From the IMG/VR virus record IMGVR_UViG_3300044637_001341, positions 1 to 23,524 of that record: 23,524 nucleotides of DNA. One strand, given 5' to 3'. A program made the position numbers and the translations under genes. The stretch comes from a virus. The notes beneath the pieces were generated by a model. It worked only from the letters and a program-made list of their open reading frames with translations, did no database searches and had not been told where the DNA came from. Positions 251-17,452 of the stretch are shown piece after piece (positions within the stretch are counted from its first letter, which is position 1; each line of letters opens with the position of its first letter).

Positions 251-802
251 ATGCGCCCCATCATTCTCGGCCTCACCGGCTACAAGCGCAGCGGCAAGAC
301 GACGGTTGCCGAACATCTCTGCGACGCCCACGGTTTCTATCACGAGTCGTTCGCCGCCCCGATCCGCGCCGCCGTCATGGACATTCTGGGCCTCGACTTC
401 ATGCACCAGCTGGATCAAGCGAAGGAATCGCCGATCGCTTGGCTCGACGGCACGACCCCGCGCAAGATGATGCAGACGCTCGGCACCGAGTGGGGCCGCG
501 AGATGATCCACCCCGAACTGTGGATCCGCGCTTGCCAGCGCCGCATCCAAGTCGCGATCGACCGCGGCGAGAACGTCGTCATCTCCGACGTGCGGTTCAA
601 GAACGAGGCCGACGCTATCCGCAGCATGGGCGGCACGATCTTGCGCGTTATCCGCGTCACGAACGAAAGCCAAGATCCCCACGCCAGCGAGGCCGAGATC
701 GAGTCGATCCACAGCGATTTTTTGCTGTCCAACGAGGCGGATTTGCACGCCCTTCGCCGCAACGTTGACATGATGCTTCCTTGGTTCTCGGAGGGGGCGT
801 GA
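251..802 (+). CDS. Deoxynucleoside monophosphate kinase
   Basis: 183-residue P-loop kinase. Such phage enzymes phosphorylate dNMPs to dNDPs in the cytoplasm to feed viral DNA synthesis. The N-terminus carries a Walker A loop, GYKRSGKT, at residues 10-17 with Lys16. Further on, EWGREMIHPELW and the NVVISDVRFKNEADAI segment (Asp in a Walker B-like strand) follow the layout of T4 gp1-like dNMP kinases; length is in the usual range. The ATG at 251 follows GGAG at 241-244 with 6 bases between. The stop codon overlaps the GTG start of the polymerase gene (GTGA, 799-802), so translation is probably coupled. Substrate specificity cannot be read from the sequence; an adenylate-kinase-like role is the alternative. 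Confidence 0.85.
   Translation: MRPIILGLTGYKRSGKTTVAEHLCDAHGFYHESFAAPIRAAVMDILGLDFMHQLDQAKESPIAWLDGTTPRKMMQTLGTEWGREMIHPELWIRACQRRIQVAIDRGENVVISDVRFKNEADAIRSMGGTILRVIRVTNESQDPHASEAEIESIHSDFLLSNEADLHALRRNVDMMLPWFSEGA
790..797 (+). promoter_or_regulatory. Ribosome binding site that fixes the DNA polymerase start at GTG 799
   Basis: GGAGGGGG lies 1-9 bases before the GTG at 799-801, inside the end of the kinase gene. An in-frame TTG at 781 lies upstream of this site, so it would place the Shine-Dalgarno inside the coding region. The GTG start also begins the protein just before the exonuclease strand and gives the 4-base stop/start overlap common elsewhere in this genome. Confidence 0.7.
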
Positions 803-2721
803 TCGAAGTCTCGATCGACCTGGAAACGCGCAGCACCGTCGATCTCAAGAAGAGCGGCGTGTACCCCTACGCGGCGCACCCGACGACCGACGTGTGGTGC
901 ATGGCGTTTCGGTGCAACGACGATTCGCGCCCCCACCTCTGGTGGCCGGGACAGCCTACCCCGCGAATCTTCGGCGCTCGCACGCCGTTGACGGTCCGCG
1001 CCTGGAACGCCAACTTCGAGCGCCAGATGTGGAACGCGATCCTGGTGAAGCGGTACGGATTCCCGGCCCTACCCCTCGACTCGTGGGTGTGCACCATGGC
1101 CGAGGCGCTGGCCATGGGCCTGCCGGGGTCGCTCGACATGGCCGCGAAGGCCCTCGGCCTGCCCGTCGAGAAGGACGCCGCCGGCTCGCGCTTGATGATG
1201 CAAATGGCCAAGCCGCGCCGCGTCCAGCCTGATGGCACGGTGATCTGGTGGGACGCCCCGGACAAGAAAGCGCGCCTCGGCGAATACTGCAAGCAGGACG
1301 TGGTGGTGGAGCAGGCGATCGCGGCCCAGGTACGCCGTCTCTCGGCGCCGGAGCGCCGCATCTGGATCCTCGACCAGCAGATCAACGACCGCGGCGTGGG
1401 CCTCGACACGGGCCTCGTGTTGGCGCTCCACGACATCGACCGAGCCGCGCAGGCTGACGCCGATCGACGCATGGCCGAACTGACGGCCGGTGAGGTAAGC
1501 GCCGTCACGCAGGCCGGCCGCCTCACGGAGTGGCTGCGCGGGCAGGGCCTCGACCTCGACGGCGTGGCCAAGGACGACGTGCGCGACCTGCTGGAGTGCG
1601 ACCTCGACCCGACCGTCAAAGAAACGTTGTTGCTGCGTCAAGAAGCCGGCGGCACGTCGTCGCGCAAGCTCGTCTCCATGAAGAGCTCCGTCTCGGCGGG
1701 CAACCGCATCCGTGGCATGCTGGCCTACCACGGGGCCAGCACCGGCCGCTGGGCCGGGCGTCTGGTGCAGCCTCAGAACATGCCGCGCGGCACGATCAAG
1801 CACAAGCACCTGGAGCCGTCCCTGCCGTTCGTGCTGGCGCGCGACACCGGGGCCTTGGAGACGCTGTTCGGTTCGATCCACGGCGTCGTCCCCTCGGCCC
1901 TGCGTGCGTGCTTCCAAGCCGGGCCGGGCAACGTCCTCTACGCCGGCGACTACAGCCAGATCGAGGCCCGCGTGCTGCCGTGGCTGGCCGGGGCCGAGCA
2001 CGTGCTGGATGTCTTCCGCGCCGGCACCGACATCTACCAAGCCGTCGCCGACCGCATGGGCGTGGACCGCCAGATCGGCAAGGTCGCCGTGCTCGCCCTC
2101 GGCTTCCAAGGCGGCAAGCGCGCCTTCCAGTCGATGGCCAAGAACTACGCGGTGAAGGTCACGGACGAGGAGGCCGAGGAGGCCAAGGTGGCGTGGCGCC
2201 AAGCCAACCCCGAGGCCGTGGCCATGTGGGAAGGAATTCAGAACGCTGCGTTGCGCGCCTGCAACAACAGGCAGACCTCGTGCTGCGACGGCCGGATTCA
2301 CTTCTACCTCGACGGCCCGGATTGGCTGGTGTGCGAGCTCCCTTCCGGCCGCCGCCTCTGGTATCGCAAGCCGCACATCGTCAAAAAGCTGACACCGTGG
2401 GGACGGGAAGTTGACGAACTCCGGGCGTGGGGCGTGGACTCCTACACGAAGAAGTGGACGAGCTACAGCCTCTACGGAGGTCTTTTGACCGAGAACGTGG
2501 TGCAGGCCGTGGCGCGCGACATCATGGCAGGGGCCATGCTTCGCCTCGACGCCGCGGGGTACCCCCCTGTTCTTACTTGCCACGACGAAGTGGTTTCCGA
2601 AACGGCCGCGGACTTCGGGAGCGTCGAGGAGTTCCGCAGTATCATGACCGTCACCCCCAAGTGGGCTTCCGGCCTCCCCATCAAGGCCGATGTCTGGAAA
2701 GGCACGAAGTACAGAAAATGA
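799..2721 (+). CDS. Family A DNA polymerase with 3'-5' exonuclease domain
   Basis: 640-residue replicative polymerase. The N-terminal half is a DnaQ-like proofreading exonuclease: Exo I is SIDLET (Asp7, Glu9), Exo II is the NANFERQMWN segment, and Exo III is YCKQDVVVEQ. The C-terminal half is the polymerase: the TGRWAGRLVQPQNMPRG segment, motif A GDYSQIEAR with catalytic Asp384, motif B (O-helix) RQIGKVAVLALGFQGG with Lys428, and motif C HDE at 595-597. There is no 5'-3' exonuclease domain, as expected for phage PolA enzymes. At the E. coli Phe762 and Tyr766 positions the alignment by eye gives Leu432 and Phe436. The GTG start overlaps the kinase stop, and the stop overlaps the primase start (ATGA at 2718-2721), so the genes form one operon. 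Confidence 0.95.
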   Translation: MIEVSIDLETRSTVDLKKSGVYPYAAHPTTDVWCMAFRCNDDSRPHLWWPGQPTPRIFGARTPLTVRAWNANFERQMWNAILVKRYGFPALPLDSWVCTMAEALAMGLPGSLDMAAKALGLPVEKDAAGSRLMMQMAKPRRVQPDGTVIWWDAPDKKARLGEYCKQDVVVEQAIAAQVRRLSAPERRIWILDQQINDRGVGLDTGLVLALHDIDRAAQADADRRMAELTAGEVSAVTQAGRLTEWLRGQGLDLDGVAKDDVRDLLECDLDPTVKETLLLRQEAGGTSSRKLVSMKSSVSAGNRIRGMLAYHGASTGRWAGRLVQPQNMPRGTIKHKHLEPSLPFVLARDTGALETLFGSIHGVVPSALRACFQAGPGNVLYAGDYSQIEARVLPWLAGAEHVLDVFRAGTDIYQAVADRMGVDRQIGKVAVLALGFQGGKRAFQSMAKNYAVKVTDEEAEEAKVAWRQANPEAVAMWEGIQNAALRACNNRQTSCCDGRIHFYLDGPDWLVCELPSGRRLWYRKPHIVKKLTPWGREVDELRAWGVDSYTKKWTSYSLYGGLLTENVVQAVARDIMAGAMLRLDAAGYPPVLTCHDEVVSETAADFGSVEEFRSIMTVTPKWASGLPIKADVWKGTKYRK

Positions 2722-5159
2722 CCCACCAAGCAACCTTCCAAGCCCTCTACGCCGCCGGCATCCGAGAGCTCGTCTGCGTCATCCCGCCCAACGCCCCGCT
2801 GTCCCCGCGATCCAAGATTGCGCCGGCCAGCCGCGGCAAGAGCCCCGGCCGCCCCAACGGGGAGGGAGAGTGGGGCGGCTACCCGTGGCAGACGGCCGGG
2901 CAACCCGACCTCCGGGCCGTCATGGCCTGGCAGCAGGCCGGCGCCAACATCGGCCTGCACGCCGGCCGATACCCGGGCATCGACATCGACGTGACGCGCG
3001 AGGACTTGGCCGCGGCGATTCACGCCGAAGCCGAACGCGCCTTCGGTGCCGCACCGGTGCGAATCGGCCGGGCGCCGAAGCGCCTCCTGATGTACCGGGC
3101 CGACGTGCCGTTCCCGAAGATGCAGTTGCGGTTCCGCGCCGACGACGGCGTGGAACATCTCGTGGAACTTCTCGGGCAGGGCCAGCAGTACGTCATCGGC
3201 GGCATCCACCCGGCCACGGGGGAACCCTACACGATCGACCGCCCGGTGGAGCAGCTGGTGGACGCCCTCCGGCCGATCACGCGAGAGGGGGCCACCGCCT
3301 TCTTCGAGGGCTTGGCCGAAACGCTGGAGATGCTGGGCTGCGAGGTGGTGGACCGGAGTTTCAGCGCCGAGCACGCCGAACGCCTGGCCGTGGACCAGGA
3401 GACCCTCAAGGGGCCGTCGATCGAGGCCGTGGCCAAGCTGGTGGCCGCGACCCCCAACGGCGACGCCTTTCCCCACCGCGACGACTACATCCGCTTCGGC
3501 TACGCCATCAAGGCGGCCTGCGGCGTCGAGGCCGAAGGCGAGGCGCTGGAGATTTGGATGGAGTGGGCCGCCCGGTGGGAGGGTGCCAAGGACTTCGATT
3601 CCGACACGGCGGAGCGCGACTTCCTGCGCATGCACGCGCCCTTCGAGATCGGTTGGAACTATTTGCTGGAGGCCGCGCGTCGCGCCGGCGTGGCCACCGC
3701 GGAGTGGGACTTCGACGCCAAGGAGGCGCCGGAAGAAACGCCCGCCGAGCGCCCCAGTGGTGTTCCCATGTGGTCGGACATGGCCATGGTCCACCGCATC
3801 CTGCGCGCCCACGGCGACGAGATCATGCACGTCGAGGGCCACGGCTGGTACGCCTGGAGCGGCCGCGCGTGGGAGCCCGACAACAACGGCGTGCGCGTCA
3901 CCCAGCGCGTCACGTCCGTCCTGGCCCAAGCCTCTGGCCAAGCCCTCCAAGAGATAGAGAAGGCCAACACCGCCGACAAGGTGGCCATGCGGCTGTCGAG
4001 TTCGAACACGGTGTCGGCGGTTCGCACCTTGCTGGCCAGCGCCGCCGGCATCCAGCGAAAGGCCGAGCACCTAGACGCGGACCACTTCCTGCTCAACACG
4101 CCCGGCGGCATCGTCAACTTGATGTCGGGGGAGATCCTGCCTCACCGCCCCGACGCGCGCATGACGAAGATGACGGCTGTCGCCCCGGATCGCAGCCGCC
4201 CGGCCTCGCGTTGGCGGCAGTTCCTCAAGGAAGCCACCGGCGGCGATGTCGAACTGGAGTCCTACCTCCAGCGCCTCGTCGGCTACAGCCTCACCGGCTC
4301 GGCGCGCGAGGAGATGCTGGCGTTCTTCCACGGCGCCGGCGGCAACGGCAAGTCGTTGTTCTTGAACGTTATCCGCGAGATGCTTGGCCCCTACGCCGAG
4401 ACAGCGGCCATGGACACGTTCACGGCCAGCACCGGCGATCGGCACCCCACCGACATGGCCAAGCTGCGGGGTGCCCGCCTCGTGACGGCCAGCGAGACGC
4501 AGGCCACGCGCCGGTGGGACGAACAGCGCATCAAGGCCCTCACCGGCAACGAGGACGTGACGGCGCGCTTCATGCGGGAGGACTACTTCACCTTCCGCCC
4601 GCAGTTCACCTTGATCGTGGCCGGCAACCACGCGCCGAAGATCGAGAACGTGGACGACGCGCTGATGCGCCGCATCCACATGGTGCCGTTCAACCGCAAG
4701 CCGGCCAAGGTGGACGTGCACCTCAAGGACAAGCTGCGCGAGGAGTATCCGAGCATCTTGGCCTGGGCGATCGAGGGCGCCGTGTTCTGGTTCGCCGCGG
4801 GGTTGCAGCCGCCGGATTGCGTGCTCGGCGCCACGCGCGAGTACCTGGAGAGCGAAGACGTGGTGTTGCGTTGGCTTGCCGAACGCACCCACAAGCAGGA
4901 TAATGGCGGGTGTTTGCTCACCGAAGCCTACGCGGACTTCCGCGACTGGAGCCGGCAGGCGAACGAGCAATCGGCCATCGCGATGTCGCAGCAGCAGTTC
5001 TCGAAGGCGCTGGCCGGCAAGGGGCTGGCGCAGCATCGCGATACGACCACTGGCTTGCGCTCCGTCACGGGGCTTGCGCTGGTTGCCGATCCTGCGGCCT
5101 CGACGGCCGACTTCGCTGCACTGGAGCCCGCAGTTGCGCAAGCACTTGGTGATCCCTGA
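2718..5159 (+). CDS. Primase-polymerase / SF3 helicase fusion (P4-family primase)
   Basis: 813-residue fusion that would both prime and unwind DNA at the phage fork. The N-terminal domain (about residues 1-230) is a bifunctional primase-polymerase: the metal-binding pair is in GIDIDV (Asp89, Asp91), and QYVIGGIHPATGEPY supplies the typical histidine. A linker with a D5/PriCT-like region follows. The C-terminal helicase has Walker A GAGGNGKS at residues 539-546 (Lys545), a Walker B-like GARLVTASET, and the SF3 motif C segment LIVAGNHAPKI ending the strand. A small winged-helix-like tail closes the protein. The ATG at 2718 overlaps the polymerase stop by 4 bases; longer in-frame starts would run deep into the polymerase gene. 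The 3' end overlaps the next gene by 26 bases. Confidence 0.92.
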   Translation: MTHQATFQALYAAGIRELVCVIPPNAPLSPRSKIAPASRGKSPGRPNGEGEWGGYPWQTAGQPDLRAVMAWQQAGANIGLHAGRYPGIDIDVTREDLAAAIHAEAERAFGAAPVRIGRAPKRLLMYRADVPFPKMQLRFRADDGVEHLVELLGQGQQYVIGGIHPATGEPYTIDRPVEQLVDALRPITREGATAFFEGLAETLEMLGCEVVDRSFSAEHAERLAVDQETLKGPSIEAVAKLVAATPNGDAFPHRDDYIRFGYAIKAACGVEAEGEALEIWMEWAARWEGAKDFDSDTAERDFLRMHAPFEIGWNYLLEAARRAGVATAEWDFDAKEAPEETPAERPSGVPMWSDMAMVHRILRAHGDEIMHVEGHGWYAWSGRAWEPDNNGVRVTQRVTSVLAQASGQALQEIEKANTADKVAMRLSSSNTVSAVRTLLASAAGIQRKAEHLDADHFLLNTPGGIVNLMSGEILPHRPDARMTKMTAVAPDRSRPASRWRQFLKEATGGDVELESYLQRLVGYSLTGSAREEMLAFFHGAGGNGKSLFLNVIREMLGPYAETAAMDTFTASTGDRHPTDMAKLRGARLVTASETQATRRWDEQRIKALTGNEDVTARFMREDYFTFRPQFTLIVAGNHAPKIENVDDALMRRIHMVPFNRKPAKVDVHLKDKLREEYPSILAWAIEGAVFWFAAGLQPPDCVLGATREYLESEDVVLRWLAERTHKQDNGGCLLTEAYADFRDWSRQANEQSAIAMSQQQFSKALAGKGLAQHRDTTTGLRSVTGLALVADPAASTADFAALEPAVAQALGDP
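5123..5126 (+). promoter_or_regulatory. Ribosome binding site for TTG start at 5134
   Basis: GGAG at 5123-5126 lies 7 bases before the TTG at 5134-5136, inside the end of the primase-helicase gene. It supports TTG 5134 over the in-frame TTG 5146 and GTG 5149, which lie further from the site and would trim the first beta strand of the phosphoesterase. Confidence 0.55.
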
Positions 5160-5973
5160 CACGCAGATCCGGCCCGGCGTCCCTGACATTCATCTCGAAT
5201 GGATTGGACGCTGGGCCGCGGAACACACGCCGGATGTGATTGTCCAATTGGGCGACGCGTGGGATATGCCCTCGCTGTCGGCCTACGACGCGCCGGGCTC
5301 GATGAAGATGGAGGGCGCGCGCTACGAGGCCGACGTGGAGGCCGGCAACGTGGCCTTCGCCAAGCTCAACAAGCCGATCGAGGACGAGATCGCGCGGCGG
5401 AAGCGCCGCAAGATCAAGGCGTGGGATCCTGAGCGCCACTTCCTCTTCGGCAACCACGAGCAGCGCATCGAGCGCGCCATCAACGCGAATCCCAAGTTCG
5501 CCGGCACGATCGGCTACCACCACCTCAAGACGCCGGGGTGGGCGCGACACGACTACTTGGAGCGGCTGTGGCTCGACGGCCTCGTCTACAGCCACTTCTT
5601 CCAAAGCCCGCACTCCCGCTACGCCATCGGCGGCACGATCGACAACGGCCTCAACAAGATCGGCGCCAGTTTCGTGCAGGGCCACGAGCAGGGGATCCGC
5701 TACGGCACCCGCATCCAAGGCTCCGGTGCCAACTGGCACGGCCTCGTGGCGGGCAGCTGCTATCTCCACGACGAGGGCTACCGTGGCGCGCAGGGCCAAG
5801 GCCACTTCCGCGGCATCGTCGTGCTGAACGATGTGGAAGACGGGGACTACTGCATCGAGGTCATTCCCCTTAATCGGTTGTGCCGGATGTACGAGGGCGT
5901 CACGCTCGGCGCCTGGCTGCGCGGCACGTACAAGGACGCCGAGCACCGCTTCACCTTGGCCCGGAAGAAGTGA
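5134..5973 (+). CDS. Calcineurin-like metallophosphoesterase
   Basis: 279-residue predicted two-metal phosphoesterase. The family motifs can be seen in order: PDTQ (Asp9, Gln11, in place of the more usual D-x-H), GDAWD (Asp41, Asp44), GNHE (Asn107, His108), a histidine in VYSHFF (His154), and GHEQ (His184) where the canonical motif is GHTH. Gln for His at two metal-ligand positions is seen in some phage members; it could change metal choice or substrate range. No signal peptide is visible, so it acts in the cytoplasm. It overlaps the primase gene by 26 bases and is probably co-translated, which suggests a role in nucleic acid or nucleotide metabolism during replication. The substrate is unknown. 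The TTG start is inferred from the upstream GGAG. Confidence 0.85.
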   Translation: MRKHLVIPDTQIRPGVPDIHLEWIGRWAAEHTPDVIVQLGDAWDMPSLSAYDAPGSMKMEGARYEADVEAGNVAFAKLNKPIEDEIARRKRRKIKAWDPERHFLFGNHEQRIERAINANPKFAGTIGYHHLKTPGWARHDYLERLWLDGLVYSHFFQSPHSRYAIGGTIDNGLNKIGASFVQGHEQGIRYGTRIQGSGANWHGLVAGSCYLHDEGYRGAQGQGHFRGIVVLNDVEDGDYCIEVIPLNRLCRMYEGVTLGAWLRGTYKDAEHRFTLARKK

Positions 5974-5974
5974 C

Positions 5975-6223
5975 ATGCCGCGAAAGAAGGCCACGCCCCC
6001 GGCGGTCTACTACATCGGCAAGCGGCCACATCTGCACGTTCCGTGCAAAGTTTCCCCTGAGATCAAGGACTTGGCAAAGGCCATGACGGCGGGGAATGTC
6101 GAAGCGGTGGTGGCCATCATCTACACGACCGACGGCGACGAGTACCGGGTCTACGACATCGGCCGGCGAAACGCCTTCGACGTGGCCGCCGACTTGCAAG
6201 ACATGGCGAGCCGGTTTAGCTGA
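5975..6223 (+). CDS. Hypothetical small phage protein, 82 aa
   Basis: I do not recognise this protein. It begins MPRKKATPP, a short basic and proline-containing lead, then alternates strand-like and helix-like segments (YYIGKRPHLHV, EIKDLAKAM, VVAIIYTTDGDEYRVYDI), which suggests a compact alpha/beta fold. It has no membrane segment, no cysteine cluster and no nucleotide-binding loop. The ATG lies 2 bases after the phosphoesterase stop, and GAAG shortly upstream is a weak Shine-Dalgarno, so translation may depend on coupling. Coding is supported by position in the operon, tight spacing and continued high-GC codon use rather than by homology. Confidence 0.7.
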   Translation: MPRKKATPPAVYYIGKRPHLHVPCKVSPEIKDLAKAMTAGNVEAVVAIIYTTDGDEYRVYDIGRRNAFDVAADLQDMASRFS

Positions 6224-6292
6224 CAGGGTTGTATTCTGCAAAAGCCGGTGTTAAGGTGCGCCCATCAACCAACTGGCTCACCGAAAACTACC
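6224..6292 (+). promoter_or_regulatory. 69-base leader with weak promoter-like elements
   Basis: This is the only real gap inside the second half of the plus-strand operon, and it looks somewhat richer in A and T than its surroundings. TTGTAT at 6229-6234 and TTAAGG at 6251-6256 are 16 bases apart and loosely resemble -35 and -10 boxes; both are poor matches. The gap could carry a middle promoter for the three small genes that follow, or be simple spacer. Confidence 0.25.
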
Positions 6293-6559
6293 ATGTCTCG
6301 AATCCCCGCCAAGCGCGCCGAAACCTTCTCGTTTGACGGCATCCCGAACCAGCGCGTCTCCGATGTCTGGTTCGCCACCGGCGGCGCCTACTCCCTGAAC
6401 TGGCTGCGCTCGGCCCTTCGCCGCGGCATCGTCACCAGCGCCGACCTCAAGGCCTACAAGGAGAAGGGCGTCTCCGAGCGCATGCAGCGCATGTGGGCGG
6501 CGCGCGACGCCTACCACGAGGCCAACCGCGCCGCGAAGGCCGCCGCCAAGGGGAAGTGA
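6293..6559 (+). CDS. Hypothetical small basic protein, 88 aa
   Basis: I do not recognise a family. The product is basic, with a strand-rich first third and a helical, alanine/arginine-rich C-terminus ending AAKAAAKGK. The middle, VWFATGGAYSLNWLRSALRRGIVTSADLKAYKEKG, could form a helix-turn-helix-sized unit, so nucleic acid binding is possible, but this is inference. The ATG at 6293 lacks a clear Shine-Dalgarno (the bases before it read CTCACCGAAAACTACC), which is unusual here; an earlier in-frame TTG/GTG-type start near 6248 is possible but poorly supported. The next gene starts 1 base after its stop. Confidence 0.65.
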   Translation: MSRIPAKRAETFSFDGIPNQRVSDVWFATGGAYSLNWLRSALRRGIVTSADLKAYKEKGVSERMQRMWAARDAYHEANRAAKAAAKGK

Positions 6560-6560
6560 C

Positions 6561-6914
6561 GTGCACTGCCCCAAGTGCGGCTACGAGACGCGCGTCATCG
6601 GCACACACCGCTTCACCGACGGCATCCGCCGCCGCCATGCTTGCGTCAACGACGAATGCAAGCATCGCTTCAACTCCGCCCAGGTCATCTACGGCAAGCC
6701 GTTCGCTGTCTGCAAAGGCAAGCGGGTCAAGCTCGTGGACGGCGTGTGGCAAACCGCCAAGACGCTCCGCGAGATGGACTTGATCGTGGCGCGCTCGAAG
6801 CGTGCAAAATGGACTGCGGCAGAACGCCGCGAGTTCATCAAGAAGTCCCTGTTCGGGGACAAGTATCGCGAACCCGCCGAAGCACACGAAACCGAAGGAG
6901 CCGACCATGGCTGA
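6561..6914 (+). CDS. Ogr/Delta-like zinc-finger protein, candidate late-gene regulator
   Basis: 117 residues starting at GTG, preceded by the purine-rich AAGGGGAAG at 6548-6556. The N-terminus has four cysteines in a C-x2-C ... C-x4-C arrangement: CPKC (Cys3, Cys6) and CVNDEC (Cys28, Cys33) followed by KHRF. That matches the Ogr/Delta family (CtNpeCghtF), zinc-containing activators of P2-like late promoters. The stretch GIRRRHAC also recalls the NrdR zinc ribbon, but NrdR has C-x2-C in its second half. The rest (basic, with AERREFIKKSLFGDKY) is unfamiliar. It overlaps the following gene by 8 bases. Its position at the end of the presumed early operon suits a regulator that turns on the opposing late operon; direct evidence for that is absent. 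Confidence 0.7.
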   Translation: MHCPKCGYETRVIGTHRFTDGIRRRHACVNDECKHRFNSAQVIYGKPFAVCKGKRVKLVDGVWQTAKTLREMDLIVARSKRAKWTAAERREFIKKSLFGDKYREPAEAHETEGADHG

Positions 6915-7113
6915 CGAAATCGACCGCGCCCAAGACCTCAACCTGGCCATGAACGACATGGCCGCGAAGCATCGCAAACCGACGCTTCCGGCGCTGGGGA
7001 TCTGCCACTACTGCTCCGAACCGGTGGCCGGGGAGGCCAAGTTCTGCGACGCGGATTGCAGCGCGGACTACGACAAGGAGCAGCTGCTCCGGCAGCGCCA
7101 CTCGCGAGAGTGA
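6907..7113 (+). CDS. Small zinc-finger protein with TraR/DksA-like N-terminus
   Basis: 68 residues. The ATG at 6907 has a strong AAGGAG at 6895-6900. The opening MADEIDRAQDLN closely resembles the start of phage and plasmid TraR/DksA-type proteins, whose N-terminal helix enters the RNA polymerase secondary channel. The C-terminal finger is C-x2-C (Cys33, Cys36) and C-x3-C (Cys47, Cys51) within FCDADCSADYDKEQ, a pattern I associate with DUF2116-like zinc ribbons rather than the canonical TraR C-x2-C pair. It could modulate transcription by the host polymerase, or be an unrelated zinc ribbon. It is the last plus-strand gene; its 3' end forms half of the hairpin at the convergent junction. Confidence 0.75.
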   Translation: MADEIDRAQDLNLAMNDMAAKHRKPTLPALGICHYCSEPVAGEAKFCDADCSADYDKEQLLRQRHSRE

Positions 7114-7120
7114 CGCTGCC
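7091..7120. terminator. Hairpin with GNRA tetraloop at the convergent operon junction
   Basis: GGCAGCG (7091-7097) pairs with CGCTGCC (7114-7120), and CACTC (7099-7103) pairs with GAGTG (7108-7112), with a single C/A mismatch between the two helices and a GCGA loop at 7104-7107. On the plus strand this is a GNRA tetraloop closed by C-G, an especially stable RNA cap. It spans the stop codon of the last plus-strand gene and ends 6 bases from the stop of the opposing 816-aa gene. There is no T-rich tract on either side, so it is not a textbook intrinsic terminator; it may act bidirectionally or protect 3' ends. Confidence 0.5.
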
Positions 7121-7126
7121 CTAGCC

Positions 7127-9577
7127 TCACTGGCCTATCAGGGCCCGCATGCGCGCCTGCTGGCGGATCAGGTTCTCGCGTTCCGCCGGCGGGGTGTTCG
7201 GGTCTTCGATCAACCGCTGGCGCTGCTCGATGCCGCGGAGCACGTCTGCGCGAGCCGGGCCGACGCTGGTGTCCTCGTTCCCGACAAAGCGCCCTGCCGC
7301 CGAACCGGCGCCGCCGCCCAGGCCGCGGCCGGCGGCTTCCGCAAGCTGCCCCGTCTGCTCCGCCGCCACTCGCTGGCGAGCCACTTCATCGAAGAACGGG
7401 TTGAGCTGGCGAGATCCCTGCCGGGTCCACACGTCGCCGATCGCGTTGACGGCCTCGGCCTGCGCCGTCTTTTGACCTCGATTGATCGCCTCCGCGGCCT
7501 TGGCCGTGAGGAACGGCAAGAAGTTGGCGTTCTGCAACACCGAGCTCGCTTGGCCGCCAGTGAACGCAGGGTCGGTCGGGTCGAGCACCGACACGCGGTT
7601 CTGGCCGCCGAGGAAAGCGTTGCGCGTCTGCGACTGCTGGGTGAGGGCGCCAAGCTGCTGGCCGTAGCGCTCTGCCACCGCAGGATCTTGGAGCCGCGGA
7701 AACACGTCCCGAAGCCCGCGAGAGGTAAGAGCGTCGGACACCGAAGGCACCACCTGGTCCACTCGCCCGCCTTCTCCCGCACCCAAGCGCTCCCGCGCCA
7801 GGATTCGCTCGTTGATCGAGTCCATGACGCCCTCGCGGAACTGCGCGGGACCGACCGGGTTCGGGCGCAGCGCGGGCGGCAAACCCGCCATCTGGCCGGC
7901 TTCCCGCTTGGCGACTTCGCTCAAGATCTCCGCAGGCCGGTTTCCTTTGGCGTCAAGGAACTCCCGGCCGAGGCCCGCGAACTCGTCGGCGGTATAGCCC
8001 GCCGCGCGAGTGTCCAAGCCGGTCCCGTAGCTCGGCGGCAGAACACCGCGGAGGGCGGAACTGAACTCTCCGTAGGCCTCGCCCAAGGCGCGCGCACGCT
8101 GGGGGTCTGCCCCTTCCCCGACGAGATTGTTGGCCGCGCTCTGCTGCATGGTGCCGAGCGTTTCGCGAGTGTTCTCCGCGAGGTTGGCGTCCATGAGGAT
8201 GCGGCGCTGCTGCGGGTTCAGCGGGTCGATGAAAGGCCCTTGGCCGGGGAACTTCGGCGAGGTACGCATCGCATCGACGGCGAGGGTACGGCGCAACGCC
8301 TCCGGCACAGCGCCCGCTTGGTTTTCAAACAAGGCAGCGACTCGCGGATCATCCCCGACGTAGGGGCTCCCGCCTGCCGGGCGCAAAGCACTGTTGAGGA
8401 GCGGGTCCGCTTCCTCGTTCAAGGCCTGCTGCCAGGCCCTCGCGTTGAACGCGCTACGCTGGCCGGGGCGCTCCCCGGTCGCACGCTCCAGCACGTCACG
8501 GACGCGCTCGCCTTGGCGCGCTGCCCGTTCGTCCAGTAGCGAAGCCACGTTGCCGCGAACCTCCGCGTTGAGGTTGGCTGCGCCGCGCATGTTGCTACGC
8601 ATGGCGGGGCCTGCGATGTCCGCGAGGATGGTGTCGTCAATGCCAAGGGCCTCCAAGCGGGCGATCGCCTCTCGGAAGTCGTCCAGAGAAGCATTGCCGC
8701 TGGCCACCATTTCCGAGAACTTCTGCAACCCTTCACGGCGTGCGCGGTCGGCGGCATACTCGCCCGCGTCACGGATCATGCCTCCCGTTGCGGCGCTGGC
8801 CGCGTTGCGAACGCCTTGGCCGAGCGAGGTTCGGCCGACAAGACCGGTGGCGGCCTGCCCGCCGCGAACGGCGAGAGGGAGCCCTGCGCCGAAGCCGAGG
8901 CCGAAAGCCGCGCCCGTGGCCGTGGAAAGAGCCTGCTCCGCTGCTCCGCCTTCGCCTGCGCCATACCCGCCAAGAGCGCCCTGCGCCATTCCGACGCCGC
9001 CTGCGCGAGCGGCCTGGCCTACCAGACTCGGTACGGCGGGCGCCGTGCGCGCCGCGTTGGCCACGGCGATGGCCGCGGGGCTGGTTCGCCCTGCGATGCT
9101 GGGCGCGGCCGCGCCGAACGTCGCCAGCGCCGGAACCGCCGCACCGGTAACGTCGGCCGCGAGTGCACGCCCCGGGTACTGGCGGGCGTATTCGTCTTGG
9201 CCCATTCGCGCCGCTGCGACCTCGCGATCGTAGGTAGTACCCTCTTCGGCGGGGGCATCGAACCCGAAAGCTCGGTCCACCAGCGTGCCGAACCCTCCCG
9301 CAAGGCCGGGCAGTTCCGACATCCGAGACGCGCGGTAGCGCCCGGCGATCTCGTCACCGAAGTTGAAGAGGGCCGAATTGAGCGCCCGGCCACCGAAGCC
9401 GACTTCGGCGGGGGCGGAACCGCCCAGCGAGTTGACACGCTGCACCGCTTGGCTGAGCGAGGAGAGCGTGTAGCCCTCTTGCGCCAGCCCTTCCTCAACG
9501 ATGTCGGGGTCGATACCGGAGGCCAGAGCGTTGTCCACCACGCTCTGCAACTTCTTTACGCGCTCTGCCGGGGTCAT
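7127..9577 (-). CDS. Large virion-type protein, 816 aa, candidate internal/ejection protein
   Basis: I do not recognise a named domain. It is the last gene of the late operon. The N-terminus (residues 1-70) is helical and ends GFGDEIAGRYRA-like; a long Gly/Ala-rich, moderately hydrophobic region spans about residues 125-275 (for example AIAVANAARTAPAVPSLVG and TATGAAFGLGFGAGLPLAV). The rest is long, charged and helix-prone, with many Arg, Gln and Glu. That mix of amphipathic Gly/Ala helices and long soluble helices resembles podovirus ejection proteins, which are packaged and cross the cell envelope with the DNA. The ATG at 9577 has a GGAGG upstream and overlaps the preceding stop by one base (TGATG). 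A virion role is inferred from position and composition only. Confidence 0.75.
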   Translation of the reverse strand: MTPAERVKKLQSVVDNALASGIDPDIVEEGLAQEGYTLSSLSQAVQRVNSLGGSAPAEVGFGGRALNSALFNFGDEIAGRYRASRMSELPGLAGGFGTLVDRAFGFDAPAEEGTTYDREVAAARMGQDEYARQYPGRALAADVTGAAVPALATFGAAAPSIAGRTSPAAIAVANAARTAPAVPSLVGQAARAGGVGMAQGALGGYGAGEGGAAEQALSTATGAAFGLGFGAGLPLAVRGGQAATGLVGRTSLGQGVRNAASAATGGMIRDAGEYAADRARREGLQKFSEMVASGNASLDDFREAIARLEALGIDDTILADIAGPAMRSNMRGAANLNAEVRGNVASLLDERAARQGERVRDVLERATGERPGQRSAFNARAWQQALNEEADPLLNSALRPAGGSPYVGDDPRVAALFENQAGAVPEALRRTLAVDAMRTSPKFPGQGPFIDPLNPQQRRILMDANLAENTRETLGTMQQSAANNLVGEGADPQRARALGEAYGEFSSALRGVLPPSYGTGLDTRAAGYTADEFAGLGREFLDAKGNRPAEILSEVAKREAGQMAGLPPALRPNPVGPAQFREGVMDSINERILARERLGAGEGGRVDQVVPSVSDALTSRGLRDVFPRLQDPAVAERYGQQLGALTQQSQTRNAFLGGQNRVSVLDPTDPAFTGGQASSVLQNANFLPFLTAKAAEAINRGQKTAQAEAVNAIGDVWTRQGSRQLNPFFDEVARQRVAAEQTGQLAEAAGRGLGGGAGSAAGRFVGNEDTSVGPARADVLRGIEQRQRLIEDPNTPPAERENLIRQQARMRALIGQ

Positions 9578-10911
9578 CAGCGGCCTCCGTTAAGGCGGGC
9601 GTTTTGCTTTGCCCGCATCCAAGCATCGAACTCGGGCGTGCCGATCGGGGGAACACCGCCAGCGCCCGCAGCGCCCGGACTGGCGGGGTCTTGCAGCTGA
9701 TACGGTTGGTAGGTCGCCGCCGGATCCTGCCAGTCCAGCGTGTTGCCGAACTGCGCGCGATGCTCGCGGGCCGACTGCGCGCGCTGCACGCGAGCGAGTT
9801 CCTGCGCACGGAGGAACCGGAACAGGATGGCATTGCCTTCGGGCGTCTTGAAGAAACCCGGCTGCGCATTGACCAAAAACTCACGGTCCTTGTCGGTGAA
9901 GCCGTTACCCGTACCAAAGGCCGAGGCCATCGCTGCGACGCGCGGGACGATAAGGGCCTCTGCGGCTTCCAAGTCGGTGCCGACTTCCGTACCCACCAAG
10001 CGGCCCGCCTGCGCAATCAGGCCGGGGATGACGCCCGTGGGGTTGCGCTGGAGGATCGGCTGGAGCGCGTCAAGAGCGCGAAGCGACTGCACCGCGGACA
10101 CGCCCTCCGCTTGGATCGTCTGGTAATTGCCGGCGTCGCCCTTGGCGAACTCGCGATCCCACACGTTGGCGGGGACGTTGCTGACCGACAAGTGCGTGGC
10201 CCCCGCAGCACGATCCGCCAAACGCGCAGCCTGGAACGCCGGATCGCGCATGCCGATGCGAACGATCTGCGCCGAATCCGGCTCGGCCGCCTGCACGTCG
10301 GTGAGGCGCTGGTTGCCCAGCTTCGAGAACTGGCCGAGGCGCGTCTGCCCGGTGGCCGGGTCCGTGTATTCCGTCGGCGCGAACCACTCTTCGAGCGGCG
10401 CGAACTGCTTGGCCGCCTCCAAGCGGGCCTTGGCCTCGTCCATGAAGCCTTCGTTCTGCAACGCGATGATCTCCGCTTGGAACCGCTGGCGGAGGTCCGC
10501 AGGCACCCCCGCTTGGGGGGCCGGGGAGGCCACTTGCTGCGCCGAGATGCCTGCCTGCTGGGCCTGCGTTTGCGGGCTGGCGAGAAGCCGCGGCGTGGCC
10601 ATGAGGCGCTGCTGGTCGGGGGTCAACGAAGGCGCGGACATCTGCGGCATCCCGCTGCCGCCGTTCAAGATCGCGCTGATGCGAGCCTTTCGGGCCGCCT
10701 CCTGCTCCTGCGCCAAGCGATCGGCGTTGACCTTGGCCTGGGCTTCCATGCCGGCGCCGAAGTCGCCATCCCGGTACAGGCTGGCGCCGAGCCGGCCGAT
10801 GGCCTGGCGGCGCAGGAGCTTGGCCTGCTCTTCCGAGAGAGCAGACGTGTCCGCCGTGCCCGCAGCGTACTGCGTGAAGCGGTCCTTGAGTCGATCGAAG
10901 ATGCCTGCCAT
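9577..10911 (-). CDS. Virion-type protein of unknown function, 444 aa
   Basis: No family recognised. It starts MAGIFDRLKDRFTQYAAG; the first 110 residues are strongly helical and charged (EEQAKLLRRQAIGRLGASL, AQKVNADRLAQEQEAARKARI type runs). Residues of about 120-190 are Gln/Pro/Ala-rich and probably flexible. The C-terminal third contains more ordered alpha-helical sequence ending in a Pro/Gly-rich tail with VPPIGTPEFDAWMRAKQN. The ATG at 10911 is chosen because it lies directly after the upstream stop (TGACATG); a longer in-frame start at 10965 would overlap the 114-aa gene. It overlaps the 816-aa gene by one base. Possibly a second internal virion protein or a tail-associated protein; sequence alone does not decide. 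Confidence 0.75.
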   Translation of the reverse strand: MAGIFDRLKDRFTQYAAGTADTSALSEEQAKLLRRQAIGRLGASLYRDGDFGAGMEAQAKVNADRLAQEQEAARKARISAILNGGSGMPQMSAPSLTPDQQRLMATPRLLASPQTQAQQAGISAQQVASPAPQAGVPADLRQRFQAEIIALQNEGFMDEAKARLEAAKQFAPLEEWFAPTEYTDPATGQTRLGQFSKLGNQRLTDVQAAEPDSAQIVRIGMRDPAFQAARLADRAAGATHLSVSNVPANVWDREFAKGDAGNYQTIQAEGVSAVQSLRALDALQPILQRNPTGVIPGLIAQAGRLVGTEVGTDLEAAEALIVPRVAAMASAFGTGNGFTDKDREFLVNAQPGFFKTPEGNAILFRFLRAQELARVQRAQSAREHRAQFGNTLDWQDPAATYQPYQLQDPASPGAAGAGGVPPIGTPEFDAWMRAKQNARLNGGR

Positions 10912-10912
10912 G

Positions 10913-11257
10913 TCAGTACCCGCCCACGTCGAGAAGACCGCCGCCACGCTGGCCGCGGGGTGCACGCCGGCCGAAGCCGAGGCCGAGCATTCCGCCCTGC
11001 CCCATCTGGTACGGCCGCTGGTTCATGTCGAGGGAGCCCATCTGCTGCTGGGCGGACGGCAGGCCGGCGTAAGGGTCGCGGCCGCCGTCGAAGCCTTGAA
11101 GCGAAGCTCCCATGTTCCACAGCTGGTCCTGGCGAAACTTCTTGAACGCGTCCTCGCCGATCTGCGCGCGCATGCCGTCCGTGAGGCCGGCGTTGCCGAT
11201 GCGCGAGCCGAAGTCCTTGGCGGCGTTACCGAGCGCCGCGCCGATGCTGCCAAACAT
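10913..11257 (-). CDS. Small Gly/Gln-rich virion-type protein, 114 aa
   Basis: Unrecognised. It begins MFGSIGAALGNAAKDFGSRI, a short amphipathic helix, and ends in a Gly/Arg/Met-rich low-complexity tail (GQGGMLGLGFGRRAPRGQRGGG). The start is ambiguous: GTG at 11260 and ATG at 11257 are adjacent (GTGATG), both overlapping the stop of the S74-domain gene and both served by AAGGGG a few bases upstream; ATG is preferred. The N-terminus resembles small podovirus internal or scaffold-associated proteins, but no function can be given. It sits between the S74 protein and the 444-aa protein. Confidence 0.7.
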   Translation of the reverse strand: MFGSIGAALGNAAKDFGSRIGNAGLTDGMRAQIGEDAFKKFRQDQLWNMGASLQGFDGGRDPYAGLPSAQQQMGSLDMNQRPYQMGQGGMLGLGFGRRAPRGQRGGGLLDVGGY

Positions 11258-12654
11258 CACTTCTTCCCCTTCTTCGGTTCGCGGATCGGGCCGTCCAGCA
11301 AGCCGCCTGTGGCGCGAGCGTAGTTCACGCGCTTGAGGCCGTCGGGCCCGGTCACCACGGCCCCCGGATCGCGCTGCTCGACTTCACCGGCGAGGAGGCC
11401 GAACTGCTTCTCGCCGGTGCCCTTCATGCGGTACGAGTAGAACCCGCGGCCCGCCGGCTTGATGTATTCCTTGGCGCGCTCGTCGGACAGCGAGAACAAC
11501 TGCATGCCGAGGCCGGCGATCTGGCCGAGGCCCATGCCCTGCCGCGTCGTGCTGGAGCCGCTGGACGAACCGCTGGAGTTGACCGTGGCGCCCATCGACG
11601 GGTCGAGCAGGCCGAGGCTCTGGTTAATGAGGCCGAGGCGCTCCGCTTCGAGGTTGCGCGGCGCGTCGAGGCGCTGCTGTGCAAGCTGCTGCTGGAGGGA
11701 GCCGATCTGTCCGAGGGCGTCGGCCCCTTGCAAGCCCATGCTCTGCTGGAGGGCGCCCAACTGGCCAAGCTGCCCGGCCGCGGAGAGGCCAAGCTGCGCG
11801 GAGTTGAACCGGGTTCCGACGTTGAAGCGATCGGTGTCCGACAGCAGGCCCGTGTTGAACTGGTTCATCTGGTTCTGCGCCGCGGCGTTGGCGAGGTTCG
11901 CCTGGTTCGCCATCTGCGCGGAAGCGATGTTGGCTTGGGTGCCGAGGTTGGCGTTGGTCGTGCCGACGTTCAGGTCAACGCCTTGGTTGGCCTGGGAGGC
12001 CGCCAGCTGGTTGCCGATGTCACCCATCGCGGCCTGCTGTGCGTTCTGGAAGGCCGACTGCCGAAGCCCGGCCACCGTGCGGTTGGCGTTGTCGTCGTAG
12101 GCGCGGTTCGTCTCCGCCTCCAGCACCGCCTGGCGAGAGCCGCCGAAGGCGCCCGCGGCCGCCGCGCGAGCCGCATCCTGCTGCCGAGCCATCTGGCGGC
12201 TGCGCTCGATGTCGGCGAGCGAGGTGTCGATGACCCCCGAGGTGTAGGGGTTCATGTACGCGGAGAGGTCCGTGTCCCGCAGGCGCTCGGCCGTGATGTC
12301 GCGGATGTCGCCGCGGTTCACAGTGCTGGCCGACGCGCCGGCGGCCTGCGCCTGGACGGCGGGGGCCGACTGGCGGGCCGCGATCTGGCCCGGGTCGAAG
12401 TTCAGCAGGCCGGTGAGGGCGTTGCCCGCCGCGCCGACGCTGGCGTTGCCTGCGCCGATGGCCCCGCGGGTGGCGTCAAACGCCGCCTGCTGGTCGGGCG
12501 TGAAGTCCGCGAACTGGCGGACGCCCATGTTGTTCGCGGCGTTGACCGCGCGGTTGTAGTTGCCGAGGAACGCAGCCCGGACTTCCGGGTCAAGAACCTG
12601 CTGCTGGGTCTGCTGCTGGGTCTGCTGCTGCGTGGTGCGCGTCCGACCGCCCAT
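11257..12654 (-). CDS. Virion protein with C-terminal S74 intramolecular chaperone domain, 465 aa
   Basis: The N-terminus is a (TQQQ) repeat; residues of about 20-380 are rich in Ala, Gln, Asn and Gly with long helical runs of NLGTQANIASAQMANQANLA type, suggesting an extended, probably trimeric, coiled structure. The C-terminal 76 residues match the S74 endosialidase chaperone: SDERAKEYI at residue 390, then YSYRMKGTGEKQFGLLAGEV and a VNYARATGGLL end. S74 domains fold trimeric fibres and then cut themselves off using a Ser and a Lys five residues on; Ser390 and Lys395 fit. The ATG at 12654 has AGAGG upstream; the in-frame start at 12684 would lengthen the overlap with the acetyltransferase-like gene. 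Likely a fibre or elongated virion component; target unknown. Confidence 0.82.
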   Translation of the reverse strand: MGGRTRTTQQQTQQQTQQQVLDPEVRAAFLGNYNRAVNAANNMGVRQFADFTPDQQAAFDATRGAIGAGNASVGAAGNALTGLLNFDPGQIAARQSAPAVQAQAAGASASTVNRGDIRDITAERLRDTDLSAYMNPYTSGVIDTSLADIERSRQMARQQDAARAAAAGAFGGSRQAVLEAETNRAYDDNANRTVAGLRQSAFQNAQQAAMGDIGNQLAASQANQGVDLNVGTTNANLGTQANIASAQMANQANLANAAAQNQMNQFNTGLLSDTDRFNVGTRFNSAQLGLSAAGQLGQLGALQQSMGLQGADALGQIGSLQQQLAQQRLDAPRNLEAERLGLINQSLGLLDPSMGATVNSSGSSSGSSTTRQGMGLGQIAGLGMQLFSLSDERAKEYIKPAGRGFYSYRMKGTGEKQFGLLAGEVEQRDPGAVVTGPDGLKRVNYARATGGLLDGPIREPKKGKK

Positions 12655-13024
12655 TGGAAAGCCTCTTTGCGAAGGTGGTTGCAATCGGGCGGAAGCCGGC
12701 TTGGCGGGTCCAAGCGCGGCCCCAGCCCTCTCGGCCGAGGATCGTCATGCGCGTGCATCCGATCGACTCAGCCCAGGCTTCGCAGGCAGGGAACATGGTG
12801 GAGAGCTCGGCCAAGTCCCCGGCCGCGAGCCATAGGTGGCACGTCAGGCCCTCGGGGTGTTGGTGGACTTCGGTCACGGCGACCGACTGTGCACCAGGCC
12901 AGAGTTGATACTTCCCGGCCTCCAGCCCGTCCAAGACGGTTTCGAGAGGCGGGTTCTCGGGATCGAATGATAGCGCGGATTGGAGGAGGGGGCCATACGA
13001 GGCCCCCTCTTCCCGCGGCGTCAC
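12590..13024 (-). CDS. Acetyltransferase-like (GNAT-type) small phage protein, 144 aa
   Basis: The core (about residues 30-120) follows a small GNAT-like pattern often found beside phage tail genes: a central strand with VAVTEVHQHPEGLTCHLWLAAGD, a helix ending AWAESIGCTRMTILG, then REGWGRAWTRQAGFRPIATTFAKRL. The GREGW...GF...KRL ending is what I recognise. Whether it binds acetyl-CoA is doubtful because a clear Q/RxxGxG/A loop is missing. It starts at GTG 13024, overlapping the upstream stop by 4 bases (GTGA), with no good Shine-Dalgarno, so coupling is likely. The C-terminal 20 residues (HHAAADPAADPAAGS type) lie in the 65-base overlap with the S74 gene and are read from its Gln-repeat DNA in another frame. 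Confidence 0.7.
   Translation of the reverse strand: MTPREEGASYGPLLQSALSFDPENPPLETVLDGLEAGKYQLWPGAQSVAVTEVHQHPEGLTCHLWLAAGDLAELSTMFPACEAWAESIGCTRMTILGREGWGRAWTRQAGFRPIATTFAKRLSNGRSDAHHAAADPAADPAAGS
12598..12633. repeat. Three tandem 12-base units coding in two frames
   Basis: CTGCTGCTGGGT (12598-12609) is repeated exactly at 12610-12621 and with one change (C for G at the tenth base) at 12622-12633. Read on the minus strand it encodes TQQQ units at the start of the S74-domain protein and, in another frame, the ADPA-type units at the end of the acetyltransferase-like protein. Because the unit is a multiple of three, copy number could change without breaking either frame. Confidence 0.85.
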
Positions 13025-13413
13025 GGCAGGCGGACCTGGGGCACGCCGTTGACGTACTCAACCAGCAAGTAGTTGCGGAGGTAGTCCTGCACCTGCTGGG
13101 CGAGGTTGACGGGCGGGTCGGTCACGGTGGCTCCGAAGATGATGTTGAGGGCGGCGTTGACGCGGGCGACGATCTGCCGCGCGAAGGGGTCGATGCCGCC
13201 CGCGTTGATGATGGTCTGGTCCGAAGCGCCCAAGAGCGGCTGGCCGAACTCCTCGATCTTCATCAACCACACGCCGCCGTCGCGCTCGTACAGCGACACG
13301 CCGATACCGTCGGGCGTGAACTCGAAGACCACGTTGCTCTGGATGTCGATGGCGAAGTCGCGGGTACCGACGGTGAACCGGAAGGCGCGCTGCGAGAGGG
13401 AATAACCGGACAT
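13021..13413 (-). CDS. Virion-type protein of unknown function, 130 aa
   Basis: Not recognised. The sequence is strand-rich: AFRFTVGTRDFAIDIQSNVVFEF, then GIGVSLYERDGGVWLMKIEEF, followed by a helical C-terminus (PFARQIVARVNAALNIIFG, LAQQVQDYLRNYLLVEY). It has the feel of a small beta-sandwich with a helical assembly tail, but this is only secondary-structure reading by eye. The ATG at 13413 has GAGGAG upstream, which excludes the longer frame starting at 13527. Its stop overlaps the next gene's GTG by 4 bases. It lies between the fibre-like gene and the acetyltransferase-like gene, in the tail region of the operon. Confidence 0.75.
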   Translation of the reverse strand: MSGYSLSQRAFRFTVGTRDFAIDIQSNVVFEFTPDGIGVSLYERDGGVWLMKIEEFGQPLLGASDQTIINAGGIDPFARQIVARVNAALNIIFGATVTDPPVNLAQQVQDYLRNYLLVEYVNGVPQVRLP

Positions 13414-13426
13414 GACGTACTCCTCG

Positions 13427-14449
13427 TTAGATCGGGCCCATGACCCGAGAGAAAGCTGCGGGAGACCCGAAGCCCATATGGTACAGAACCCCGATACCCA
13501 GCGTTGCTGTGTCGGAGCTCGTGGCAACCAAGCCCGAACCGAAGCTGCGTTCTACCGTCGTCGGGATATTGGTCGTGATCGTCTGGTCGAACACGGGAGT
13601 GCTGCTGGCTCCCGCGTACACGCGAAACCGCGCGCTGGTGCCCGCCGCGTTAACTTCGATGTCGAACGTGTAGTACGTGGCCAGCGACAGCGTGAGAGTG
13701 GTGCCCGCCGTGGTACGCGTCGAGTTGTTGGCAGTCTTGGCCCGACACGTAGACCCGTCCAGTTCGAAGTACGCCCCGTCCTCGGCGTCGCTCTGGTTAA
13801 TGCAGTCGTGAAAGCCGAGGCGAACAATGCGCCCCGCGAACGACTCAAAAGGCAGATACCCCGCGCGGAACTTAAACGCGCCGACTCCGAACCGCAAAAG
13901 CCGCGAACTGAAATTAACGTCACCAAAGCTAGTTGTGTACCGGTACCCGCTTACGCCTTCGGCCACAGAGCGCAAAGCTGCGCCGCCGAGCGGGTACCCG
14001 ATGACGGCCTCCGTAGGAGGGTTCTGGTTGTTGCTCCCACCGTTAATCGGTTGACCGGCGAAGATGGAGGCTTGTGCCGCGGATACGTTGGTGAAGTACG
14101 CGTGCAGCCATACGTCCAAAGGACCAAGCGCGGCGGGAGTTTCCACCGCTGCCAACTCGAAACCCGTAGCGCCCGCGTTGACGCGGACGACCCGCAGGGC
14201 GTTGCCCGCGTAGCTCAACGCGGCCAGAGAGTCGAGCTGCGCGTCAGACGCCTGCTTGCCGTTGAGCGCCGCCTGCAAGTCCGCTTGGTCGGACAACGTG
14301 CCCGTGATGTCGCCCCAGGCCGTGGCCGCGGTGGTGCCTCCGGCGTTCGACGCGCGCTGCACGGCGCGCTCGATCAACAAGTTGCGCTGCGCTTCGACCG
14401 AGGGGTCGTAGCGGACAGGCGGCGTGGGGAGGACCAGCTTCTCGGTCAT
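13427..14449 (-). CDS. Tail fibre / receptor-binding protein candidate, 340 aa
   Basis: The N-terminal 60 residues are helical, with ITGTLSDQADLQAALNGKQA, a motif typical of phage fibre stalks. It is followed by ALRVVRVNAGATGFELA, another common fibre-repeat pattern. From about residue 110 the protein becomes Ser/Thr/Gly/Asn-rich with many beta strands (TTAGTTLTLSLATYYTFDIEV, RFRVYAGASSTPVFDQ), consistent with a lectin-like beta-sandwich that could contact the host surface. The ATG overlaps the upstream stop by 4 bases (ATGA) and has GAGG upstream. The C-terminal half appears less GC-rich at third codon positions than neighbouring genes, as often seen in exchanged receptor-binding modules. 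The binding target cannot be inferred. Confidence 0.7.
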   Translation of the reverse strand: MTEKLVLPTPPVRYDPSVEAQRNLLIERAVQRASNAGGTTAATAWGDITGTLSDQADLQAALNGKQASDAQLDSLAALSYAGNALRVVRVNAGATGFELAAVETPAALGPLDVWLHAYFTNVSAAQASIFAGQPINGGSNNQNPPTEAVIGYPLGGAALRSVAEGVSGYRYTTSFGDVNFSSRLLRFGVGAFKFRAGYLPFESFAGRIVRLGFHDCINQSDAEDGAYFELDGSTCRAKTANNSTRTTAGTTLTLSLATYYTFDIEVNAAGTSARFRVYAGASSTPVFDQTITTNIPTTVERSFGSGLVATSSDTATLGIGVLYHMGFGSPAAFSRVMGPI

Positions 14450-15930: not shown

Positions 15931-15933
15931 GGC

Positions 15934-17443: not shown

Positions 17444-17452
17444 GGTGTTTCC

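Follow-up and report, generated by a model that had tools for sequence, protein, structure and literature searches.

Homologs of TraR of the F plasmid, a group of small proteins to which Orf73 of lambda and Orf82 of P2 belong, bind RNA polymerase and inhibit promoters for rRNA and ribosomal proteins (PMC9239242). These small homologs are described as reprogramming host transcription during phage growth, with a DxxDxA motif that reaches the active-site region of the polymerase; the five homologs tested there are said to carry counterparts of R48 and R49 as well as a C4 finger. RNA polymerase without the Si1 insertion in β does not support TraR action, and the TraR homolog of P2 lies in the early replication operon and is expressed from an early promoter (PMC9239242). 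DNA contacts made by the zinc ribbon of NrdR involve R12, R26-R29, and R37 on the backbone, with D15 and R17 reading bases (PMC9110341). Phage P2 also encodes Ogr, which with Delta of P4 forms the Ogr/Delta family of late activators.

We compared with these systems two adjacent genes of a virus record (an IMG/VR contig) that carries an SU10-type portal and capsid. The window, i.e., the whole stretch of DNA analyzed, is 23,524 bases long. Its main features are:

251-6223, plus strand: early/replication operon with dNMP kinase, DNA polymerase, primase-helicase, metallophosphoesterase, and a small ORF (PHROG matches)
6293-6559, plus strand: 88-aa ORF directly upstream of gene 1, ending 1 nt ahead of it
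6549-6554, plus strand: Shine-Dalgarno-like AGGGGA ahead of gene 1, read directly
6561-6914, plus strand: gene 1, GTG start, 117 aa; zinc-ribbon protein with an NrdR-type ribbon in residues 1-39, without an ATP-cone, and with a basic middle part
6894-6900, plus strand: Shine-Dalgarno-like GAAGGAG ahead of gene 2, read directly
6907-7113, plus strand: gene 2, ATG at 6907, stop at 7111-7113, 68 aa, starting MADEIDRAQD; compact, TraR/DksA-like
7127-23524, minus strand: late (virion/lysis) operon with portal, scaffold, SU10-type capsid, tail, endolysin, Rz-like spanin, and ejection-type protein

As the initial annotation had proposed, the plus-strand operon ends in two overlapping genes, the overlap being 8 nt. 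Both are real genes, as judged by the Shine-Dalgarno-like sites, by family matches above chance, and by third-codon-position GC, which was 0.81 in gene 1 and 0.86 in gene 2 (0.80-0.92 in seven more of the window's gene frames) versus 0.48-0.61 in three overlapping alternative frames. The same annotation had placed them at an early/late boundary. The opposing late operon does adjoin them, its 3' end sitting 13 nt past gene 2 (the nearest gene is 7127-9577, minus strand), but the point is one where two operons converge, with the gene pair at the distal end of both. The portal gene is an open frame running off the right contig edge, so that late-strand DNA upstream of the portal lies outside the window.

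The 88-aa ORF at 6293-6559 had no Pfam or NCBIfam match above cut-off and no PHROG match, and no terminase gene was above cut-off among the family matches of the window. Between 6200 and 7400, a promoter scan returned no promoter-like site, and a terminator scan returned two terminator-like sites, both on the minus strand, versus 1.0 ± 1.1 in shuffled sequence. Rfam and tRNA scans gave no matches, and DNA similarity searches with 5000-9600 gave no match to named phages. One further contig, L019, shares 6,006 bases with the window at 99.8% identity and extends it leftward (L019:1-5425) by early genes that, judged by eye, resemble those for helicase, nuclease, and ssDNA-binding proteins; no RNA polymerase gene was noticed by eye among its ORFs. 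On the late strand, the Rz-like spanin match in the 278-aa frame at 15934-16770 (minus) is confined to residues 188-258, and the N-terminal two thirds of that frame had no PHROG match.

The N-terminus of gene 2 was said to resemble TraR/DksA, and further searches bore this out. It contains the DxxDxA motif (D3-E4-I5-D6-R7-A8) at the same positions as TraR, and residues 1-64, i.e., nearly the whole length, match phrog_54 ("DksA-like zinc-finger protein") at E 3.7e-8 with moderate identity. Of all PDB chains, TraR (5w1s) was the one best matched by a profile of 13 sequences of the gene 2 family (E 0.004, aligned from residue 1); the single sequence matched no PDB chain at E<=10. With TraR, Orf73, and P2 Orf82, gene 2 shares small size (68 vs 73 aa), an N-terminal helix bearing DxxDxA at positions 3-6-8, a four-cysteine finger followed by a C-terminal helix (predicted in gene 2), and a place in the early/replication region.

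Relatives of gene 2 in named phages were found by whole-protein tblastn, and not via the motif. All 57 records had less than 60% identity to gene 2 (PPpW-3, 48% over the alignment), and from the 40 matches listed of these 57 we picked 14 phages by hand to span different phages. The strict DxxDxA motif was present in 11 of the 14, the exceptions being L017 (DxxDxT), L034 (DxxDxG), and L052 (no motif). In 12 of the 14, the annotation of the shown flank includes a gene for replication, recombination, or ssDNA binding; of the remaining two, the L051 record is unannotated and the L036 flank shows none. The compact TraR-like gene directly follows a DNA primase gene in L047, L053, and L049 (the Schitoviridae VBP47 and pYD6-A, and phage Lana). 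Genome contigs searched with gene 2 gave one locus, in Gulbenkiania mobilis, with no ribbon gene in the flanks examined.

Two of our scans of the sequence collections used the literal peptide MADEIDRA as one of several patterns, and the near-invariance of this octapeptide in the loci that they found is therefore partly selected. The 14 named phages escape this bias, as do 22 distinct compact sequences that lack the exact octapeptide (most of those phages included), of which 13 had strict DxxDxA; L037 is a miss in this count, where the segment cut it, and a match in the count of 11/14. One record (L015/L084) combines a MADEIDRA start with a true TraR finger: it matches TraR over nearly its full length (E 4.3e-8), passes the Pfam model zf-dskA_traR (49.4 bits), and is matched by the profile of the window's family at 98.6% probability. 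The compact-family profile also matched P2 Orf82 (77% probability, E 2e-5). These two matches tie the compact group to TraR.

The zinc fingers of gene 2 and TraR differ. The C-x2-C/C-x3-C motif of gene 2, like the C-x2-C...C-x4-C motif of gene 1, is present as originally described; its cysteines (33, 36, 47, and 51) form C-x2-C-x10-C-x3-C, a spacing also found in Pseudomonas phages PPpW-3, Lana, and Persinger and in Vibrio phage VBP47. In comparison with the TraR finger, C-x2-C-x17-C-x2-C, gene 2 has about six fewer loop residues after the R48/R49 position, and R48 and R49 themselves, which in TraR contact the rim of the secondary channel and β' Si3, correspond to A44 and K45. In a set of 35 distinct compact-type sequences, 25 have R or K at the R49 position and nine have R at the R48 position. 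The model zf-dskA_traR (PF01258) was not listed for gene 2 at E<=5, versus 43.6 bits for P2 Orf82. Because neither the TraR-type finger nor R48 was found, we do not claim gene 2 as a canonical member of the TraR family; judged by its sequence, it would be a protein that works like TraR.

Several results count against even this wording, i.e., the unmatched zf-dskA_traR model, the change of R48 to A44, the failure of the single sequence to match any PDB chain, and the three named phages without strict DxxDxA. The predicted structure of gene 2, with helices at residues 3-21 and 49-67 (the latter C-terminal), is of moderate confidence (pLDDT 75.9, pTM 0.40), and when it was used in Foldseek and VIA-align searches, TraR was absent among the matches, which were weak ones to other zinc proteins, none reaching Z 3; this outcome speaks neither for TraR nor against it. 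In addition, TraR-like action would be expected only in a host whose polymerase bears β Si1 (PMC9239242). Gene 2 might instead be a treble-clef adaptor for a target other than polymerase, e.g., gyrase, as for YacG, or the phage replication machinery. The finger of the model resembles those of zinc proteins including YacG (chain 4tma_J, Z 2.8 over 41 residues, rmsd 3.5), the nearest Pfam model is DUF2116, annotated as "treble clef" (19.4 bits, below the cut-off of 26.8), and replication, recombination, or ssDNA-binding genes are the usual neighbors in named phages. However, Z values below 3 fall in the noise range of such comparisons, and an adaptor of this kind would not predict conservation focused on DxxDxA and the cysteines, although the octapeptide partly reflects how the sequences were collected. 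We regard the adaptor as rather unlikely, and consider that gene 2, taken by itself, is probably a regulator acting on polymerase.

Gene 1 was originally described as Ogr/Delta-like. Its cysteines (3, 6, 28, and 33) do have the C-x2-C...C-x4-C ligand spacing of that family, but it scored above the cut-off with the Pfam model Zn_ribbon_NrdR (PF22811; 33.2 bits, cut-off 27.2, E 5.1e-8) and below it with Ogr_Delta (PF04606; 19.8 bits, cut-off 26.3). With P2 Ogr as a control, the order was reversed (Ogr_Delta 76.9 bits, NrdR ribbon 16.8 bits). When Ogr_Delta was run across 26 records, P2 was the one above cut-off, and five others including the window gave weaker matches (E<=0.05). Some similarity to Ogr is nevertheless retained: the top PHROG for gene 1 is phrog_603 (E 3.9e-4), also the family of P2 Ogr (E 1.3e-28), and in hhalign P2 Ogr was matched by an alignment of nine ribbon sequences with 94% probability (E 1.1e-7). 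Ogr and the gene 1-type ribbons thus look like distant kin, sharing the ribbon and this profile similarity, with gene 1 the longer protein (117 vs 72 aa), and as a reading of the motif the original description made sense. We therefore rejected Ogr membership as a class and kept it as a distant similarity; the profile scores place gene 1 nearer to the NrdR-type ribbon than to Ogr/Delta.

In a PDB search, solved NrdR was matched by gene 1 alone at E 0.078 and by a three-sequence profile at E 1.6e-7. The AlphaFold model of gene 1 is confident in residues 1-40 only (pLDDT 93-96), with residues 41-117 poorly modeled, and a Foldseek search with it placed NrdR chains at all of ranks 1-13, with TM-scores of 0.26-0.37 that are probably low because of the poorly modeled remainder of the protein. 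Gene 1 shares with NrdR the N-terminal ribbon and its predicted fold, and differs from it in having no Pfam match to the ATP-cone listed at E<=5, a score of 21.1 bits with the full-length NrdR model TIGR00244 (cut-off 124.65), and a C-x4-C rather than a C-x2-C second knuckle.

When gene 1 was aligned to solved NrdR, five of the six backbone-contacting arginines were retained (R12, R26-R28, and R37; R29 is replaced by His), whereas the base-reading D15 and R17 correspond to G14 and H16. The other eight ribbons of the nine-sequence alignment vary, five having D or E plus R at the base-reading positions; among these five, L038 and L042 are identical to each other at all eight contact positions. 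As the backbone arginines are largely retained and both base-reading residues changed, we infer that gene 1 may be a DNA-binding ribbon with its own specificity, for a site other than that of NrdR. On the other side, the single-sequence match to NrdR is weak, the two base-reading residues are altered, residues 41-117 are poorly modeled, and the L044 ribbon has few of the NrdR contact residues, with the arginines not all retained.

Few relatives of gene 1 were found. As a single protein, it found none in the viral contigs; with the three-sequence alignment, seven records were found. Named phages gave one weak match (E 0.01), and with the ribbons of L004 and L020 as queries, zero matches and one weak match, respectively. 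At the syntenic place of the ribbon gene, contig L009 (2829-3128) encodes a protein without most of the ribbon cysteines and with a helix-turn-helix-like segment at its end, for which the HTH_23 score is 24.3 bits, just under the cut-off of 24.6. In L039, an NrdR-type ribbon gene (3624-3797) lies where a large-terminase-like gene ends and is followed by a gpW-like gene (both identified by eye), so that some NrdR-type ribbons do sit among late genes.

Two other functions for gene 1 were considered. A protein stripped down from NrdR could act on host NrdR boxes and so set the host's ribonucleotide reductase higher or lower to serve phage DNA synthesis, as its best family and its location, an operon of replication genes that includes a dNMP kinase, might suggest. 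We judge this very unlikely, given the missing ATP-cone, the low TIGR00244 score, and the replacement of D15 and R17 by G and H; the window also contained no site resembling, with up to three mismatches, what we took to be the NrdR box consensus, host sites lying outside this search. Binding of RNA, as a translational regulator, or of a protein would be in keeping with the basic middle part (16 K+R vs 6 D+E in residues 45-101) and with the many roles that zinc ribbons fill. This too is unlikely, since the arginines that contact the backbone in a DNA-binding family are retained and the syntenic L009 protein carries a helix-turn-helix-like segment. The ribbon above cut-off, the three-sequence profile match, the Foldseek ranking, the five arginines of six, and the L009 segment all point to DNA, and that gene 1 alone is a regulator acting on DNA seems to us reasonably probable.

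The two genes might be expected to remain together in related phages if they formed one device, as the initial annotation had suggested in proposing a two-part switch. Besides the window, 44 viral contigs had a TraR-like gene, including 14 found by one of the MADEIDRA scans; 24 of the 44 were of the compact type and 19 shared with TraR a second knuckle of C-x2-C form. With the 44th, L083, a home-made profile gave no match. The flanks covered 4-10 kb and were often ended by contig edges, so that all linkage counts are lower bounds. Of the 24 contigs of compact type, five had a ribbon gene in the flanks, as against none of the 19 with the C-x2-C knuckle. In none of these five were the genes side by side, the ribbon lying about 1.3 to 2.2 kb from the compact TraR-like gene, and most loci had one gene only in the DNA examined. 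The contigs with both genes are L004/L023 (one record) and L020, which are relatives of the window phage via the primase (43% identity), plus a separate group of L006, L011, and L013, in which the L011 and L013 ribbons are identical in sequence. Among five primase relatives besides the near-identical L019, two had both genes, L021 had the TraR-like gene only, and neither was seen in L022 or L024. In L006, the genes between the ribbon and the TraR-like gene overlap end to end, which suggests that this stretch is one operon.

The reverse comparison gave a similar picture. A phrog_54 match at E<=0.01 was found in 0 of the 7 records located through the ribbon, and three further ribbon contigs had no phrog_54-type gene in the flanks examined. 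None of the 14 named phages had both genes together, with no ribbon in the flanks examined. Zn_ribbon_NrdR gave no match at E<=0.05 in the 14 whole records; the genome search with PF22811 failed to recover gene 1 from the window itself, so that its zeros understate presence, and a home-made ribbon profile, itself built partly from sequences that it then finds, was run alongside. No Ogr_Delta match above cut-off was present in the 14 named phages, in which there were two weak matches. In two phage groups the genes thus occur in a common early region, but among the relatives examined they overlap only in the window, and nothing here points to an obligate device of two parts.

These results bear on the idea of a two-part switch for turning on the late operon, in which an Ogr-like late activator (gene 1) and a modulator of polymerase (gene 2) would be produced in fixed ratio. 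In its favor, the genes overlap at the end of the early module, the ribbon is distantly similar to P2 Ogr, P2 likewise carries both Ogr and a TraR homolog, and in L004/L023 and L020 a terminase-small-subunit-like gene (by eye) follows the compact TraR-like gene on the same strand. However, the Ogr_Delta score of gene 1 is below cut-off, the genes are not side by side in the five contigs with both, and none of the seven ribbon records has a phrog_54 match at E<=0.01. In the window, TGTT-N12-AACA and TGT-N12-ACA, which we took to be Ogr-type dyad patterns, had 0 sites (0.11 expected) and two sites (1.84 expected), respectively. The pattern TGTTGT-N13-ACAACA (PMC5694545), allowing up to three mismatches, had three sites with 2.54 expected. 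Such dyads are at chance frequency in the window, a count that does not settle the matter, as the promoter region upstream of the portal lies beyond the contig end. In P2 itself, the ogr gene and that for the TraR homolog are 3.3 kb apart, with the latter in the early replication operon (PMC9239242), and a separate promoter and terminator are annotated for ogr. A coordinated late switch by the gene pair is unlikely, and in the specific form of a fixed-ratio Ogr-like activator and polymerase modulator distinctly so.

We have, by a small margin over even chances, come to favor the view that the two genes encode largely independent early regulators of host transcription, with the gene 2 protein binding polymerase and the gene 1 protein binding DNA. 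The N-terminal helix of gene 2 would insert into the secondary channel of the host polymerase, placing D3, D6, and A8 near the active site, with the compact zinc finger and C-terminal helix anchoring the protein at the channel rim. By lowering initiation at ribosomal and other growth promoters, it could free polymerase for the phage. The case for such TraR-like action comes from the phrog_54 match, TraR as the top profile match, strict DxxDxA in most of the named phages, and the matches to L015/L084 and P2 Orf82. Gene 1, with an NrdR-type ribbon and no nucleotide-sensing domain, may bind DNA as a phage-specific transcription factor at a non-NrdR site. Both proteins would presumably be made early. 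A tighter coupling can be imagined, in which the TraR-like protein strips polymerase off growth promoters and the ribbon, bound to phage promoter DNA, recaptures the altered polymerase, the overlapping genes setting a fixed ratio and the compact finger being a second docking mode for DxxDxA at the secondary channel; we consider this highly improbable.

The effect of phage TraR-like proteins on host polymerase is already known (PMC9239242), and several gene 2 homologs are already labeled "DksA-like zinc-finger protein." The compact-finger variant may be new, as we found no description of it in the available part of PMC9239242 or in the open-licence literature searched. Phage NrdR ribbons without an ATP-cone may also be new, no paper on them having been found in the open-licence literature searched. 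While the overall interest of the gene pair is modest, a compact group that often keeps DxxDxA without the TraR finger would reveal which parts of the protein are truly needed, and would account for a phage gene labeled "hypothetical" or "DksA-like" in dozens of records. The gene 1 group, on the sequence evidence, provides a set of candidate phage transcription factors. One record, OM046621.1 (L050:3001-3204), gives a compact TraR-like gene the label "DNA cytosine methyltransferase," which is probably a misannotation.
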